In this document: piece by piece, positions 8,504 to 16,271 of the stretch
Layout: every line of letters starts with the position of its first letter
Position numbering within the stretch: the first letter of the stretch is position 1
Source: Prasinococcaceae sp. CCMP 1430
Lineage: Eukaryota > Prasinodermophyta > Palmophyllophyceae > Prasinococcales > Prasinococcaceae
Direction of reading: 5' to 3'
Length of the DNA stretch: 23,771 nucleotides
Assembly (NCBI GenBank): GCA_013416795.1
Contig: RQSC01001125.1
Coordinates: forward strand, 1,739 to 25,509
Made by a program: the position numbers and the translations under genes
The notes under the pieces: model-generated
Told to the model about the DNA's origin: nothing
Databases searched by the model: none
The model's input: the letters and a program-made list of their open reading frames with translations, nothing else

Positions 8504-11171
8504 TCACGCGAACATGGCATCGATGGCGGATTCTCCAGGGGGCTCAAGCAGGCCTCGACTGCCGTCGCCGCCGCCGTCACCGCCGCCCCCGTCGCCGCCG
8601 GTGAGGTCGACGATGTCGCCGTCACCGCCGGTGAGGTCGACGACGTCAACCACGCCCATGGCCGCTTTGGCGGCTTCGACCGAAGCGGCGAGCTCGAGCT
8701 GCGCCCGCCGGCGCACGGCCATTCGCACCCCCGCGCCCGCGCCCTTGCTCGCAGCGCCGCCGGCGGGCGGCTTCGCCACGCCCGCGCGTGCCACCTTGAG
8801 CCGTTCCTTGGACTCCTGCCGGCGCTCCTTGCGCAGCTGCGCGCGCGTCTTGCCGCCAGGCGCCCCGGCACCGTCGTCCTCGCCGGCGCCCCCGAGCCGC
8901 CTGCCCGCCGGCGCGACAAGCACGCCGCCGGCGCCGCTCGCGCGCGCCTCGAAGCCATCGGCTGAGTCGAGACCCTCGAAATCCTCCATGGGCCGGCCGT
9001 CGAGCACGGCGTGCAGCAGGCTTCCGGGGGTCGCCTCGCCCGGCGCGGCGCGCTCCGCGGCGGCGGGCGCGCCGGCGAGGACCGCGTATTCGTAGCGGCC
9101 CTGCTCGCCGGCGTCGTGCGTGTACCAGCCGCACGCGGCCCGCAGCGCCGCCGCCGCCTGGCGGAAGGCGCCGCGCCAGCGCTTGAACTGATGCGCGCTG
9201 CTGCCGATGTCGCGCCCGCGCTCCTGCGGGTCCTCCGCGGCGAGCATTCCGCGCCGGCGGCGCGGGTCGGAGAAGTCCACCAGCGAGCGCTTGGCGCGTT
9301 TGCCGCCGTGCTGCAGCGAGAGCGCCTCGGCGTCGAAGTCGAAGGTCGGGTGCGAGGCGCTGGCGTCGCGGCCACCGAAGCGCGTGAAGAAGGTGCACAG
9401 CAGGGATGCGAGCGTCGGCTCGCCGCCCGGGCGCGGCTGCTCCCTTGAGCGCGCGGAGGCGCCGGCGCGGGCCATGCGCACGTGGCACGCGGCCATGAGC
9501 GTGAGCACGTACGAGGATATGCCGCCGTTGAAGGCCTCGTTGAGCCCGCGCGCGCGCAGGAAGGCCTTGAGCGCCAGCACGAGCGGTGCGAGCAGCGGCT
9601 CTTCGCGCTGCATGGCCAGCACGGCGCCCACGGCCTCCAAGCCATTGGTGGAGCCCACCGACACGTCGGCAGCTATGCCGTTTCGGAACACCAGCTTGAT
9701 GATGGGTACGCGCGCTTTGGATATCACCTGTGCCTTGGACACCTCGCTGCCAGAGCGCAAGCGGTTGGCCAGCCTGTGGGAGTCAGGCAGCGGGGCGCGC
9801 GGGTGGGATGGCGCGGGTGCGTGGGTTCGCGGGTTGGGGAAAGGTGGATGTCAGCGTGCCAGTGGCGGGAGCCGGGCGCAGTGAGCCGGGCGCAGTGAGC
9901 CGCGCGCAGCGCCCGCGCGCGTCGGTGTCTCCCCGCGGGGATCTCGCCCGGTGAAAGGCCACCTCATGCAAAGCGTCGATGCGAGGGTGGTGAGTAGTGG
10001 GCTGGCTCGCACAGGCCGACGTGCGCGCGGGCGCGGGCGTCCGGGCGCGCACCTGAAGAGGGCCGACACAACCCGTTTCTTTTCGGTGGACGTGTACCCG
10101 CCGCCGGCCTTGTTGTTCTGCACGCCGATGCCAAGCACGCACGCGTCCACATCGGCGCCGGGAAGCGACAGGCCATTCGCGCGGCTGCCGAACAGCTCCA
10201 CGCGCGCGGCATTGCCGATGGTCGCGCGGCAGGCCGTGCGCAGCTCCTTCATGACAGGCGCGAGGCTCGCGTCGCCGTGCGTCGCCGCGTGCTTCGCGCA
10301 ACGCGCGTGAAAGGCCGTCATCTCAGCGCTAAGCACGTCGTCGGCTGAGGCACCTTGCGTCGAGGCTGCCGCGCCCGCGCTGCAAGACGGCTCGCCCTGC
10401 TCGCCCTGTGCGTGGCGCCGCGTCGTCGCGAGAGCGGGCGCCCGTGGGGTCAGCATCCCGTCGCGTGCACGCGCGGGCGAGCGAGCGCGCGAGCGCGGCA
10501 CATGAGCGCGCGTCTCCTCACCTCGTTCCCCGCGCCACCGGCCACGCTCGAAACGCCCAGCACATCGGCCCACTCTGCGATGAGCGCGGCCTCGCCCGCG
10601 GGCTTGACGCGGCCTGGCGCCGCGGGCGCGGTGTCAAAGAGGGGGCGCACGCTCGCGGCGCCACGCGCTCGCGCCGCGCGCGCCTCGTCGCGCGCTCGCC
10701 GCAGCCACGCGCTCGCGCCGCGCGCGCCTCGTCGCTGTCGGCGCCGCCCCCTCGCGGCGCTCTCGCCTTGGGCGCGGCGCTCTTGGCCTTTGGCGAGGAG
10801 GCCTTCTTGGCCCGCCCCGAGGCTGCCTTTGCCGCCTTACCCGCCTTGCCACTCTTCTTTGACCCCGGCGGCGCGCGCGCGGCGGCCGGCGCGCCGCCCC
10901 TGGTGAGCTCCTGCAGCTGCTTCGCGATGCGCTTGGCGGGCGGGGCGTGCGGCGTGTGCGCGCTCTCCGAGAGCTTCGCCCACGTCCCGGCGGCCACCTT
11001 GCGCTTCGATACCAGCGCGGCCGCCCCGCCCTTGGCTCCTGCCTTGGCGCCGCCGTTGGCCGGCTTGCGCTTCGCGACTGCGCCAGCGGGCGCCCCGGCG
11101 CGCCCCTTAGCGCCGGCGCGCGACGGCCTGCTCGCCACCGCGCGCGTGTGGCAGCCGGCGAGCCGCCGCAA
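8504..11171 (-). CDS. TRF4/TENT4-type non-canonical poly(A) RNA polymerase (5' end unresolved)
   Basis: Nuclear nucleotidyltransferase that adds short tails to aberrant RNAs for exosome decay in TRAMP-like complexes. Solid exons: 9773-8504 and 10405-10053. An upstream exon ends at 10522. The catalytic block VELFGSRANGLSLPGADVDA carries the GS motif and the Asp pair; the third catalytic Asp is in AADVSV. The junction at 10053/9773 yields SALF(R)LANRLRSGSEVSK. The central domain has KARVPIIKL, STNGLEA and GGISSYVLTLM. The C-terminal tail holds two VDLT motifs. The upstream exon has a Lys/Ala-rich N-terminus, then ALIAEWADVLGVSSV. Within it a 44-bp tandem duplication breaks the frame unless 41 or 44 nt are removed. 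No in-frame ATG was found; 11171 is the outer limit of the open frame. Confidence 0.85.
8591..8650 (-). repeat. 30-bp tandem repeat encoding two VDLTGGDG motifs
   Basis: The 19-bp string CCGCCGGTGAGGTCGACGA occurs at 8595-8613 and again at 8625-8643, a 30-bp period. On the minus strand it encodes VVDLTGGDG and IVDLTGGDG near the C-terminus of the poly(A) polymerase. Hydrophobic-hydrophobic-Asp-Leu-Thr followed by acidic residues is the classic form of a SUMO-interaction motif. Confidence 0.75.
10660..10735 (-). repeat. 44-bp tandem duplication with a 32-bp perfect repeat, frame-breaking
   Basis: Positions 10660-10691 and 10704-10735 are identical over 32 bp, with a 12-bp spacer between them. 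The period of 44 is not a multiple of three. The poly(A) polymerase frame runs into the first copy (reading SDEARAARARG) and continues after the second as VRPLFDTAPAAPGRV in a different frame. Deleting one 44-bp unit restores one frame. Removing 10708-10668 as a 41-nt GT-AG intron also restores it. Either this is a duplication-born intron, a real frameshift allele, or an assembly or sequencing error. Confidence 0.8.
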
Positions 11172-11693
11172 CCAACAGCCGCCGCCGCCGCCGCGCGGCG
11201 CACCGACCGAACGCCGAAAGAGGGCGGAGCGACCAACCGAAACCGAAACAACGAACGAACGAACGACTCATCCAACCATCGACCAATGCAATTCACGCCC
11301 CCAACCAACGAATAATCGCGATTCGAATTCGATCTCGCCCTCGAATGATCGATTCATGGCCGGCCCGCCAACAAAAATCAATCAATCAATGGCGCCAACC
11401 GGCGCTCGCCGACCTGTCCAAGCGCTGGCCGCGGGCGAAAGCGCATCGGAGACGGCGTTGCCCGTCTCTGCGCGCGCGCGGCTCTGCCGGCAGGTGCGCC
11501 GCGGCGCGGCGGCAGTGCGTGTCTATTCTCCACCCACCCACCCACCCACCCGGTGCTTGACGAGCACGTCCGGCATCACCAACCAACCCAAGTGCCGGCA
11601 CAGCCGTTGACACCGACAACAGACAAGACGCGGGGATGCTCCATTACTTCGCTAGCGGCCGTGCGTTGGGCGTGCCAACGGCCAGCGCGGCAA
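11172..11693. other. Intergenic block with tetranucleotide repeats and low GC
   Basis: This lies between the poly(A) polymerase 5' exon and the NIN-like gene stop. 11225-11400 is unusually low in GC and rich in short iterations: ACGA/CGAA near 11252-11266, AATC at about 11377-11390, and CCAAC throughout. 11531-11550 is five copies of CACC. It probably holds the promoter and perhaps a first exon of the poly(A) polymerase. Minus-strand ATGs at 11364, 11270 and 11576 are candidates, but I could not join any of them to the downstream frame with confidence. Confidence 0.5.
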
Positions 11694-14600
11694 TCAGAGC
11701 GCGTCTACGACGTCCAGCCGGACGGTGAGCGGTCTCTGCGGCACCTCCGCTGGTCGCGCCTCGAGGGTTGCCGCCACGAGCTCGTCGAAGTCCTGCTGCG
11801 TCTCCAGACGAATGAGGTCACCCTCGCGGTCCAGGTAGCGCATCTTCAGCGCGGCGGGCGGGGCGCAGCCGATGGCGGTGGCCACGCGCGCGATGACGGT
11901 GGCGAGCGCAGCTTGCGCGGCGGGCATGCGCACCCGCACAGTTTCGCCTCCGTACCTGCGCGTGATACATTGTCGAACGCGAAGATGCGCAGCGGCATCA
12001 CGGGTCAGCCACGCGGGTGTGGTGGTGGTGGCGTCGTGTGTGTGGTGGTGGTGGTGTAGCGCAGTTTTCACGAGTGGCACGAGCGTCCAGGGTGAGCGCA
12101 CGCACTTGGCTTTGATCACGATGTCTCCGCTGTCTCCGCACGCAGTCACGTCGGACCCCGGCTGCGTAATCTGCTGCTGCTGCAGCGCGTTGGTCTGTGG
12201 CAAGTTCTCTTGGTGCACGTAGCCGCTCGCAGTGGGGTCGTTGGTGTTGCCCCCCTCGGGGAAATTCGACGCCTCCTCGGGCGAGCCGTCCTTTCCAGCA
12301 CCGCGCGGCACCACGTGGTGGGGCGCGGGCGGGGCTGGGCCGATGGGAAGGGCGCCGACCGCCAGGGGTGGCACTCCTGCCAGCCTTGCGAGGATGTGAT
12401 GCGGGCCAGCGTGCGGGAGCTCTGCTTTCTGCATCAAGTGCGCGGCCTGATGGCCCGCCGAGCCGCCACAGTCCTCGCCATTTGCAGGCGTGCTGACGCC
12501 AACGAGCTGTGCGAGCATGCCGGGCGTCAGGGCATGCGTCGCCAAAGCGTAGGGGGCGTTAGTCTGCCCAGGCGTGGCCGGAAGGCTCCCGGGGAGGGGC
12601 GTCAGCGGAAATGGCGACATGCCAGGGCCGAGCGGCGTAAAGCCTTGCAGGCTCAGCAGCGGCGGCGTATGGCCCGACTGTCCCAAGGGGAGGGAAGCGC
12701 CTAGCCCCGCCATCATGCCCCGCGGGGGCACATCTCGTGGCATGACCCCTTGTAACGTCTGCGTGCCGTACTGGTATGGTGAGAGCTGAGGAGGGCCGCC
12801 TCCTTGCCGAGGGGGGGCGACCGCGGCGTCGCCATTGCCCGCATCAGGCACGGCCTCGGTGTGCCCGTAGAGACCGGCGGACGCCGCTAGCCTCTCGCCG
12901 TGGGGCAATGACGACGGTGTGCGCGCGTGCTCGCCAGCGACACCGCCGCCGTCGGCGCCAGATGGCGTTGCACCAATCGACCCCAGCGCCCCCCCGCTGA
13001 CGTCCTCGTGCAGCTTGCGCAGATCAGAGTCCATAACGTCCATCTTCTTGAGCTTCCTGCAAGGCCAGCGCATGATGCCGTGCGCGCGGCAGATGCGCTT
13101 TAGAGTAGTCGTGCAGACGCCGAGCGCCTTGGACGCGTCGACGAGCTTCATGTGGAAGTGACTCTGCAGCGTCTGGATCGAAACGCCTCGATCAGACTGC
13201 TTTCGCTTTTTCGCGCTCTGTTTGTCACCCGCCGTGTCGCGCGCCGATGGGTTGGGATCATCGGCAACCCCTGTGGCCGCAGCTCGGGCGACATCCGTCG
13301 GCTGCGCTGCCCGCTCGTCGTCTTGCTGCACGAGCTCGATGCGTTTGAGCTTTTGCAATTTGTTTCGATGCTTGGACGAGCCATAAAATGTGCCGCTGTC
13401 CTCCTCCACCGCGCTCGATGGGGCGTGTGCTGGCGCCGTCGTGGCGCCACCAGCCGCGGTTGCAGCGGTCGCAGCAGCTGCAGCAGCGGCGCGTGCGGGC
13501 AACTCGCCAGCTAACGCCTCCTCCGCTCTCTCCTTGGCCTCGGAGTCCTCGCGTGCTCGCCTCTCCCTCTCGAGGCGGCCGATGTCATCGGGCAGCACCA
13601 AGCGCACATCGACTCCGCATTCCTTCGCGCCAGTGCGCGTGAGCTCTGCAAGCTGAGCGATGACCCTGGCAGCGGCGGTGGCGACGGCGTCGCTGCTGCG
13701 GGAGGCCATCCCCCGAAACACAATCTCGACAACGACGCGGCATGTGCGGCTCTGCTCTGCGTCGCCTGCCGCCACCGTATGTGTCTGTGCCATCTCACGC
13801 GCTCGCTCCTCCCCCGTGCTCCCCGCCACCGTCTGCTCTGCGGGCGCTCCATCTCTCTGAGAGCCGCCGTCCTTGGTCCCTCCTTGCCGATCGGCCTCCG
13901 GCTCGCGTGCGCCCGGCGCACTGTCCTCGGGTAACGGCATTTGGACAGCGTCTATTGCGCACGAGGCCAAGCTGGTCGCTCCGCTGATGCGCGCCACGTC
14001 CCGCAGGGGACACTCGAAGAGGTCGGCGGAGGCGAGGTCGGCCGTCACCACCAGGGAACCCTCGTCGAAGGCCCGCACGACACTGGGCGTTCGTGTCGAT
14101 GCCTCAGATTGCCGATAGCTCGCCGTCGACGTGTCGTAACTCTGCGAGCAGCACACGCGCCGGTAGCCCCAGGCGGCACTGCCTTTACCTGAGACAGCGA
14201 ACGGGAAGCGCGCGGCGGAGAGGCACGGCGGGCTTGGTGCAGTTCGCAGGGCATCCGGCTGCGGCCCCCGCTGTTGCAGTTCGTCGCCCCCCTGGCCGCT
14301 CAGGAACCTTGCTGGACCGCCGTCGTCGAGCGCCCAACACTGAACCAGCATCACCTCGACGTCGCCCACCGCGCCGCCGCCGCTGCGAGCACAGTCGAGG
14401 CCAGAGTCACCACTGAGGAGTTTGATCATCGCTGGCGCGAGTCCTGCCGGCACGGGAACGCGCGGGACGCCGGCGAGGTCGGCGCTGCCCCACGCGCCCG
14501 GGGGGACCGCCACGTCCACGCTGCCCGCCGCCGCTGATGGCGGCGGCGGCGGGCTCGTTTCGATCCCCTCCTTTCGTAGCAGCGCCTTCACACGCCCGCA

Positions 14601-15304
14601 CATCTCCTCTTTGAAGTGGATATCTTCCGCCAGGCTGGTGACCTCGAGCACGCCGTACGCGCCATTGAAGCCGTGCGGGGCGGCCCCAGGCGTCGGCTCC
14701 TCGCTCGCGCCGATGAAGAGCGGCAGCGCCATGGTCGCGCGCACGCCCAGGGAGTATGCTTTGCCGAGCCGTAAGAATTCTTCGTCTCGATAGAGGCTGA
14801 CGTTCGGGCTGAATTCCGGCCGGCCGCTCAGCAGCACGCGCCCGGGCATGTGCGCGCGCGCCGCGCCGCGCGCGAGGCGCATGTCGAAGTCACAGCTGTG
14901 GGTGCGATACCGCGCGAGCGCCCCATTCGGGCTGCGCGACGCTCCGCCCGCACCCAGCGCGAACGGCTGCCCGAGCGTCCTGGCCATGTGCGAGCCACCC
15001 TTTGACTGGACGACGCGCCACACCTGTGCGATGCAAGCGAGCGGTGCGAGCGCGCGACGCCGTTGCTGTAAGCTCGGCAGGGCGTGCGCGGGCGTGCGCG
15101 TCGCATGTTTTTTTGGCGGCGCGCTCTGATCGCACTACGCCGGGTGGGTCTCCCCTCCGACCCGCGCCGCGCGGCGGGGCGCGGAGGCGCGCAGACGCTC
15201 TCGCCGACATCCCGCGCGCCACGTACCTGCACGAGAATGTCATCGGAGCTCTCCGCGGCTCGCGTGCACACGCGCTGAAGGGCGGCGTTGTAGTCGTCGG
15301 ACAT
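11694..15304 (-). CDS. NLP: NIN-like protein (NLP): GAF-like N-terminus, RWP-RK and PB1 transcription factor
   Basis: Nuclear DNA-binding regulator of the family that controls nitrate-responsive genes in plants and green algae. Three exons: 15304-15227, 15023-12106 and 11955-11694, giving 1,085 residues. Exon 1 (MSDDYNAALQ...DDILVQ) joins VWRVVQSKGG, matching the conserved start of the NLP N-terminal domain. Then come PFALGAG, HMPGRVLLSGRPEFSPNVSL, LGVRATMALPLF and GAYGVLEV. A weaker second GAF-like unit spans about 230-430. A basic stretch KKRKQ precedes the RWP-RK domain at about 637-687 (VCTTTLKRICRAHGIMRWPC, then RKLKK). A low-complexity Pro/Leu/Gly region follows. The PB1 domain at about 995-1080 is rebuilt across the last intron as IKAK|YGGETVRVRM. 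I do not see the His-His-Leu-Gln stretch of land-plant nitrate-sensing NLPs. Confidence 0.93.
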
Positions 15305-15615: not shown

Positions 15616-16271
15616 NNNNNNNNNNNNNNNNNNNNNNNNNNNNNNNNNNNNNNNNNNNNNNNNNNNNNNNNNNNNNNNNNNNNNNNNNNNNNNNNNNNNN
15701 NNNNNNNNNNNNNNNNNNNNNNNNNNNNNNNNNNNNNNNNNNNNNNNNNNNNNNNNNNNNNNNNNNNNNNNNNNNNNNNNNNNNNNNNNNNNNNNNNNNN
15801 NNNNNNNNNNNNNNNNNNNNNNNNNNNNNNNNNNNNNNNNNNNNNNNNNNNNNNNNNNNNNNNNNNNNNNNNNNNNNNNNNNNNNNNNNNNNNNNNNNNN
15901 NNNNNNNNNNNNNNNNNNNNNNNNNNNNNNNNNNNNNNNNNNNNNNNNNNNNNNNNNNNNNNNNNNNNNNNNNNNNNNNNNNNNNNNNNNNNNNNNNNNN
16001 NNNNNNNNNNNNNNNNNNNNNNNNNNNNNNNNNNNNNNNNNNNNNNNNNNNNNNNNNNNNNNNNNNNNNNNNNNNNNNNNNNNNNNNNNNNNNNNNNNNN
16101 NNNNNNNNNNNNNNNNNNNNNNNNNNNNNNNNNNNNNNNNNNNNNNNNNNNNNNNNNNNNNNNNNNNNNNNNNNNNNNNNNNNNNNNNNNNNNNNNNNNN
16201 NNNNNNNNNNNNNNNNNNNNNNNNNNNNNNNNNNNNNNNNNNNNNNNNNNNNNNNNNNNNNNNNNNNNNNN
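15616..16271. other. Assembly gap (656 N)
   Basis: A run of N interrupts the sequence in an extremely GC-rich stretch. The decamer GCGCGGCCGC occurs on both sides, at 15601-15610 and 16283-16292. Any reading frame drawn through this interval is artefactual. Confidence 0.98.

Follow-up and report, generated by a model that had tools for sequence, protein, structure and literature searches.

One known route of intron gain is the tandem duplication of part of an exon, usually described as acting through a duplicated AGGT (PMC4974935), and in the cases of ATP2A1/ATP2A2 and the potato RdRp a GT lies in one copy and an AG in the other (PMC4974935). An earlier note on the locus described here had invoked this route, which the literature supports, and had named, beside a frameshift and an assembly error, a newborn intron of 41 nt that a duplication in a poly(A) polymerase exon gave rise to; if that were true, it would be one of a small number whose source sequence can still be seen. 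The locus resembles the described examples in having a GT in one copy and an AG in the other, but it differs from them in that there is no AGGT and no pyrimidine tract, the donor and the acceptor are unlike those of the genome, the interval is shorter than any intron found, and it is known from genomic sequence alone.

The in-frame coding minisatellites in low-complexity linkers of G+C-rich algal genes are a second point of comparison, with which the locus shares short imperfect units, a repeated peptide and an unconserved linker, whereas the spacing here is 44 instead of 45 nt, which puts the assembled sequence out of frame. The host gene is to be compared with the Trf4/Cid1 non-canonical poly(A) polymerases (PDB 3nyb, cid1, TUT7), with which it shares a GS..DVD core and a later exon aligned to 3nyb, and from which it differs by a long Ala/Lys/Arg-rich N-terminal extension that bears the repeat and, where tested, belongs to no Pfam family. 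The genome itself, of 24.5 Mb on 145 contigs, has ~70% G+C where it was read and encodes chlorophyll a/b-binding proteins, by which the organism would be a green alga; in size and G+C it is similar to that of Prasinoderma coloniale (25.3 Mb, 69.8% G+C; PMC7455551).

Sequence and Methods

The window is the whole stretch of 23,771 nt that was analysed. Genes were called in it and in 20 further stretches of the same genome (~213 kb including N) by a gene-finding hidden Markov model with unsupervised training, whose introns are model inferences and not transcript-proven, and whose splice-site profiles come from those called introns that were at least 50 nt long. Because the model admitted introns down to 16 nt, it should have picked up short introns as a class if their sites were normal. 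Chance repeats were simulated with an order-2 Markov model on the local 439 nt around the repeat. The score that weighs an intron against a one-base frameshift let GC donors in at 1 in 60, and was calibrated in silico on 1094 coding windows from this genome, each with one base deleted. The degrees of confidence expressed below are judgements, which the model scores guide but do not equal.

Runs of N occur in 12 of the 21 sampled stretches (some of them possibly withheld sequence), and there are also single Ns standing alone, several of which fall in tracts that are G+C-rich or simple repeats. Within the window, a run of 656 N (15616-16271) is either an assembly gap or withheld sequence.

The Host Gene and its Repeat

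From its domain matches, the gene on the minus strand is a Trf4/Cid1-type non-canonical poly(A) polymerase. The nucleotidyltransferase core with its GS and DxD motifs is present, NTP_transf_2 being above its cut-off, and the last exon has matches to PAP_assoc and MTPAP-like_central under the Pfam cut-offs, the former just under. The earlier assignment to a poly(A) polymerase had named the right enzyme (NTP_transf_2, 3nyb) but not its non-canonical kind, nor that the repeat sits upstream of the polymerase core, in an unconserved, low-complexity Ala/Lys/Arg-rich N-terminal extension for which Pfam, where tested, gave no match. Downstream of the repeat the core is intact by Pfam, PDB match and translation. 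The parts of the locus are as follows, in the direction of the gene.

10736 to 11105, minus strand: upstream part of the exon, Ala/Lys-rich and of low complexity, in frame F0 (GC3 0.89-0.90; coding log-likelihood ratio ~+31 over three pieces; no Pfam match)
10704 to 10735, minus strand: 32-nt repeat, first copy, DEARAARARG in F0 (repeat search, translation)
10668 to 10708, minus strand: 41-nt GT-AG interval, judged to be no intron (donor -5.7, acceptor -4.8, shorter than every intron found)
10603 to 10727, minus strand: best-scoring ordinary-size intron alternative, GC-AG, 125 nt, a rival and unproven (model scores; donor 10766 gives 164 nt, GT-AG 10708-10614 gives 95 nt)
10692 to 10703, minus strand: 12-nt tail of unit 1, separating the two perfect copies (the two units aligned; against the tail of unit 2 it has one substitution and one indel)
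10660 to 10691, minus strand: 32-nt repeat, second copy, DEARAARARG in F2 (repeat search, translation)
10522 to 10613, minus strand: end of the repeat-bearing exon in F2, up to a GTGAG donor at 10521 (coding log-likelihood ratio +11.7)
10406 to 10521, minus strand: ordinary intron of 116 nt, GTGAGG..CACAG (gene model)
10053 to 10405, minus strand: exon of the nucleotidyltransferase core with GS and DVD motifs and an in-frame ATG upstream of the core (Pfam NTP_transf_2, E=5e-6; translation)
9774 to 10052, minus strand: ordinary intron of 279 nt, donor GTGCG (gene model)
8504 to 9773, minus strand: last exon, remaining polymerase core (PDB 3nyb, Trf4-type Poly(A) RNA polymerase protein 2, E=4.5e-11)

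Upstream of the repeat F0 has no in-frame ATG, so that the 5′ gene model is uncertain, and so is the first exon (11078-11576), for which the model has a short segment at 11576-11546 and then an intron of 468 nt whose donor is GTGGG. Towards its C-terminus the gene has another tandem repeat (8589-8647), in frame and with a unit of 30 nt, that encodes VDLTGGDGDIVDLTGGDG, resembling a pair of SUMO-interacting-motif-like VDLT sites. A search of this genome for a second copy or haplotig of the locus found none, only a 35% identical paralog, and no relative of the last exon was found in the bacterial and archaeal contigs searched. The neighbours include genes for a GNAT-bromodomain protein, a sugar transporter, a pyridine nucleotide-disulphide oxidoreductase, an LMBR1 protein and an RWP-RK/PB1 protein, the latter (11694-15134, minus strand) with a NIN-like arrangement of RWP-RK and PB1 and a very long open frame.

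What the polymerase gene contains is an ordinary tandem repeat. Positions 10660-10691 and 10704-10735 are an identical 32-nt direct repeat with a start-to-start distance of 44, at exactly the coordinates given in the earlier note; TRF concurs, reporting 2.1 copies over 10646-10735 with 93% matches and 2% indels. The repeat is beyond simulated chance, the longest perfect run at lags of 20-200 being 32, against never more than 19 in 2000 simulations. On the minus strand, unit 1 runs from 10735 to 10692 and unit 2 begins at 10691. The 44-bp unit is no clean duplicate: identity ends after 32 nt, and the tails of the 44- and 43-nt units (CTGCGGCGAGCG and CGCCGCGAGCG) differ by one substitution and one indel; the repeat is imperfect, and this alignment implies that indels have happened at it. 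Both copies read DEARAARARG, copy 1 in F0 and copy 2 in F2, frames that are one base apart. The G+C of 10604-10735 is 83.3%, a value that only 0.4% of coding windows reach. An Rfam search of the window gave no match, and the repeat thus resembles no known RNA family. Elsewhere in the sample, a complex 82-nt tandem repeat in non-coding DNA (L026, 6702-6912) is perfect across 44-46 nt.

The break of the coding frame at the repeat, as previously described, is borne out by GC3 and log-likelihood ratios: the frame is broken in the assembly, with coding in F0 upstream (11105-10736; GC3 0.89-0.90) and in F2 at the end of the exon (10613-10522; GC3 0.87). Over the ~120 nt around the repeat (10735-10614) the coding log-likelihood ratio is positive in none of the frames, lying at about zero or slightly below. 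The frame is mended by removing 2 mod 3 bases (44, 41, 95, 125 or 164) or by gaining one base. The arithmetic by which deletion of one 44-nt unit restores it holds, and so does that of the 41-nt GT-AG interval at 10708-10668; this, however, is one of seven GT-AG pairs that mend the frame and is therefore no special coincidence. In genomes of 70% G+C chance yields such pairs, which calls for caution. One base inserted between the copies joins F0 to F2 and gives a repeat unit of 45 nt, or 15 residues, with DEARAARARG of both copies in the joined frame.

Intron Grammar of the Genome

The ~61 inferred introns are 56-874 nt long (median 153, 5th percentile 90). Their donors are mainly GTGCG (35), GTGAG (10) and GTACG (7), their acceptors CAG (50), TAG (7) and AAG (5), with no GAG in the final round, and GC-AG introns number at most ~1-2 in 60. 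A possible GC-AG intron (AAG|GCGCGT) lies at L033, 8672-8823, six bases inside a GTAAAG donor, and transcripts would be needed to tell the two apart. A first, untuned model without a splice-site profile did pick the 41-nt intron at the repeat, but the same model also made 17-nt introns, and the pick was gone once splice-site profiles had been learned; the lesson is that no intron should be claimed until the splicing rules of the genome in question have been learned. Elsewhere the model called two frameshifts in ~129 kb of coding sequence (L034, 9747, and L035, 7926), which are possible consensus errors.

Explanations of the Frame Break

We prefer, with about even confidence, an in-frame 45-nt coding repeat that has lost one base in the consensus. 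Local duplication or slippage would have given rise to 45-nt units of 15 residues that both include DEARAARARG, and one base missing between the copies would break the frame, with no new intron involved. We infer that the absence of this base more probably comes from an error in the consensus of a gapped draft, within a tract of 83-87% G+C, than from a fixed mutation. The preference follows from the draft quality, the intact polymerase core and the behaviour of other coding repeats: at the four other loci where called coding sequence holds close direct repeats that are not simple (L033, L026, L022 and L038), every spacing is divisible by 3, which is also true of the coding arrays within the window, so that a 45-nt unit would fit. 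The in-frame 30-nt tandem repeat at 8589-8647 of this gene, the high G+C of 10604-10735 and the low T fraction of the intron candidates speak for it as well. Against it, 10735-10614 has no positive coding log-likelihood ratio, ordinary introns sum to a score 5.6 log units higher, and frameshifts called elsewhere are rare. The earlier note had listed a frameshift or an assembly error among its options; a frameshift or consensus error does lead, but as a one-base indel in a 45-nt repeat and not as an extra 44-bp block, since the units differ.

A possibility missed at that time, to which we give tentative credence as the next best, is that all or most of the repeat lies within an unrecognised intron of normal size (95-164 nt), in which case the sequence would be right and the repeat a neutral intronic duplication. 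The candidates are GC-AG 10727-10603 (125 nt), GC-AG 10766-10603 (164 nt) and GT-AG 10708-10614 (95 nt), whose lengths fit the introns of this genome. All ordinary-size candidates summed, mostly GC-AG, score 5.6 natural-log units over a one-base frameshift (GT-AG alone 0.28 over); the coding signal is gone across 10735-10614, a pyrimidine-rich CCCCCTCTTTGACACC stands just before the CAG at 10614, and for non-coding repeats in this genome a spacing indivisible by 3 is normal. Even so, all but one of the 31 comparable model introns score higher (their range is from 3 to more than 30, with one at or below 5.6), and the 5.6 is inflated, as the repeated 32 nt are counted twice (the second copy adding 2.5). 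Base composition, a typical rather than strictly defining property of introns, also sets the candidates apart, with a T fraction of 0.05-0.084 against a minimum of 0.095 among the 61 introns and a G+C of 83-84% against a maximum of 81.5%. GC donors are rare, and close to the repeat there is just one GT donor, the poor GTGGC.

The one-base loss and the ordinary intron are the two remaining readings, and they are poorly separated. In the calibration a score of at least 5.6 was reached by 0.6-0.8% of the deleted windows below 80% G+C and by 1 of 17 above 80%, but these windows had been picked as clearly coding, so that for weakly coding linkers the true frequency probably exceeds this. The locus is atypical both ways, in the top 1-6% of in-silico frameshifted exons and in the bottom 3% of model introns.

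A genuine genomic frameshift, be it an allele, a strain mutation or a decaying N-terminus, is less probable than either. Translation may then begin at the ATG of the next exon (10405-10053), which is in frame (AEMTAFHARC) and lies ahead of the nucleotidyltransferase core; that the N-terminal extension has no Pfam match and that F0 upstream has no in-frame ATG would agree with this, the 5′ gene model being uncertain anyway. The strong F0 coding signal upstream and that in F2 at the exon end suggest, on the other hand, that the long extension is in use, and the intact polymerase core makes a lasting loss of the gene unlikely.

An assembly artefact in which a 44-bp block was copied one time too many, as formerly suggested, is highly improbable. 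The assembly is a draft with gaps in G+C-rich tracts, and removal of one unit mends the frame; a copied block, however, should match over at least 44 nt, whereas identity stops at 32 nt and the tails carry a substitution and an indel, and the flanks of 12 single-N joins have no comparable duplication. An exact duplicated block was judged unlikely on these grounds.

Just as improbable is that the duplication created a very recent spliced intron, be it of 41 nt or of 95 nt through the same GT and the CAG at 10614. The Rogers model of intron gain requires a duplicated exon segment with a GT in one copy and an AG in the other, which is found here (GT at 10708, AG at 10668, 41 nt that mend the frame), exon-segment tandem duplication being a known route (PMC4974935). 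It also calls for a duplicated AGGT that leaves the peptide unchanged, but in GAGCGCGTGG the AG stands four bases before the GT, and removal of 41 nt from 44 leaves three extra bases; the copied segment has only 5% T and no pyrimidine tract. The splice sites and the length do not suit the host spliceosome either: 41 nt compares with 56 nt for the shortest of the ~61 inferred introns (5th percentile 90), and the donor GTGGC, outside GTGCG, GTGAG and GTACG, and the acceptor GAG score -5.7 and -4.8 (log-odds), in keeping with the remark of the earlier note that the interval was short and its donor atypical. Because of the distance between AG and GT and the failure of length and both sites in the host grammar, the locus is not classed with intron gain by tandem duplication.

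The 41-nt newborn intron (10708-10668) itself, the least credible of all readings, is strongly disfavoured by length, donor, acceptor and model score against the intron grammar of the genome, its score being 17.5 natural-log units lower than that of a one-base frameshift in the general model and 11.3 lower in the intron-specific model.
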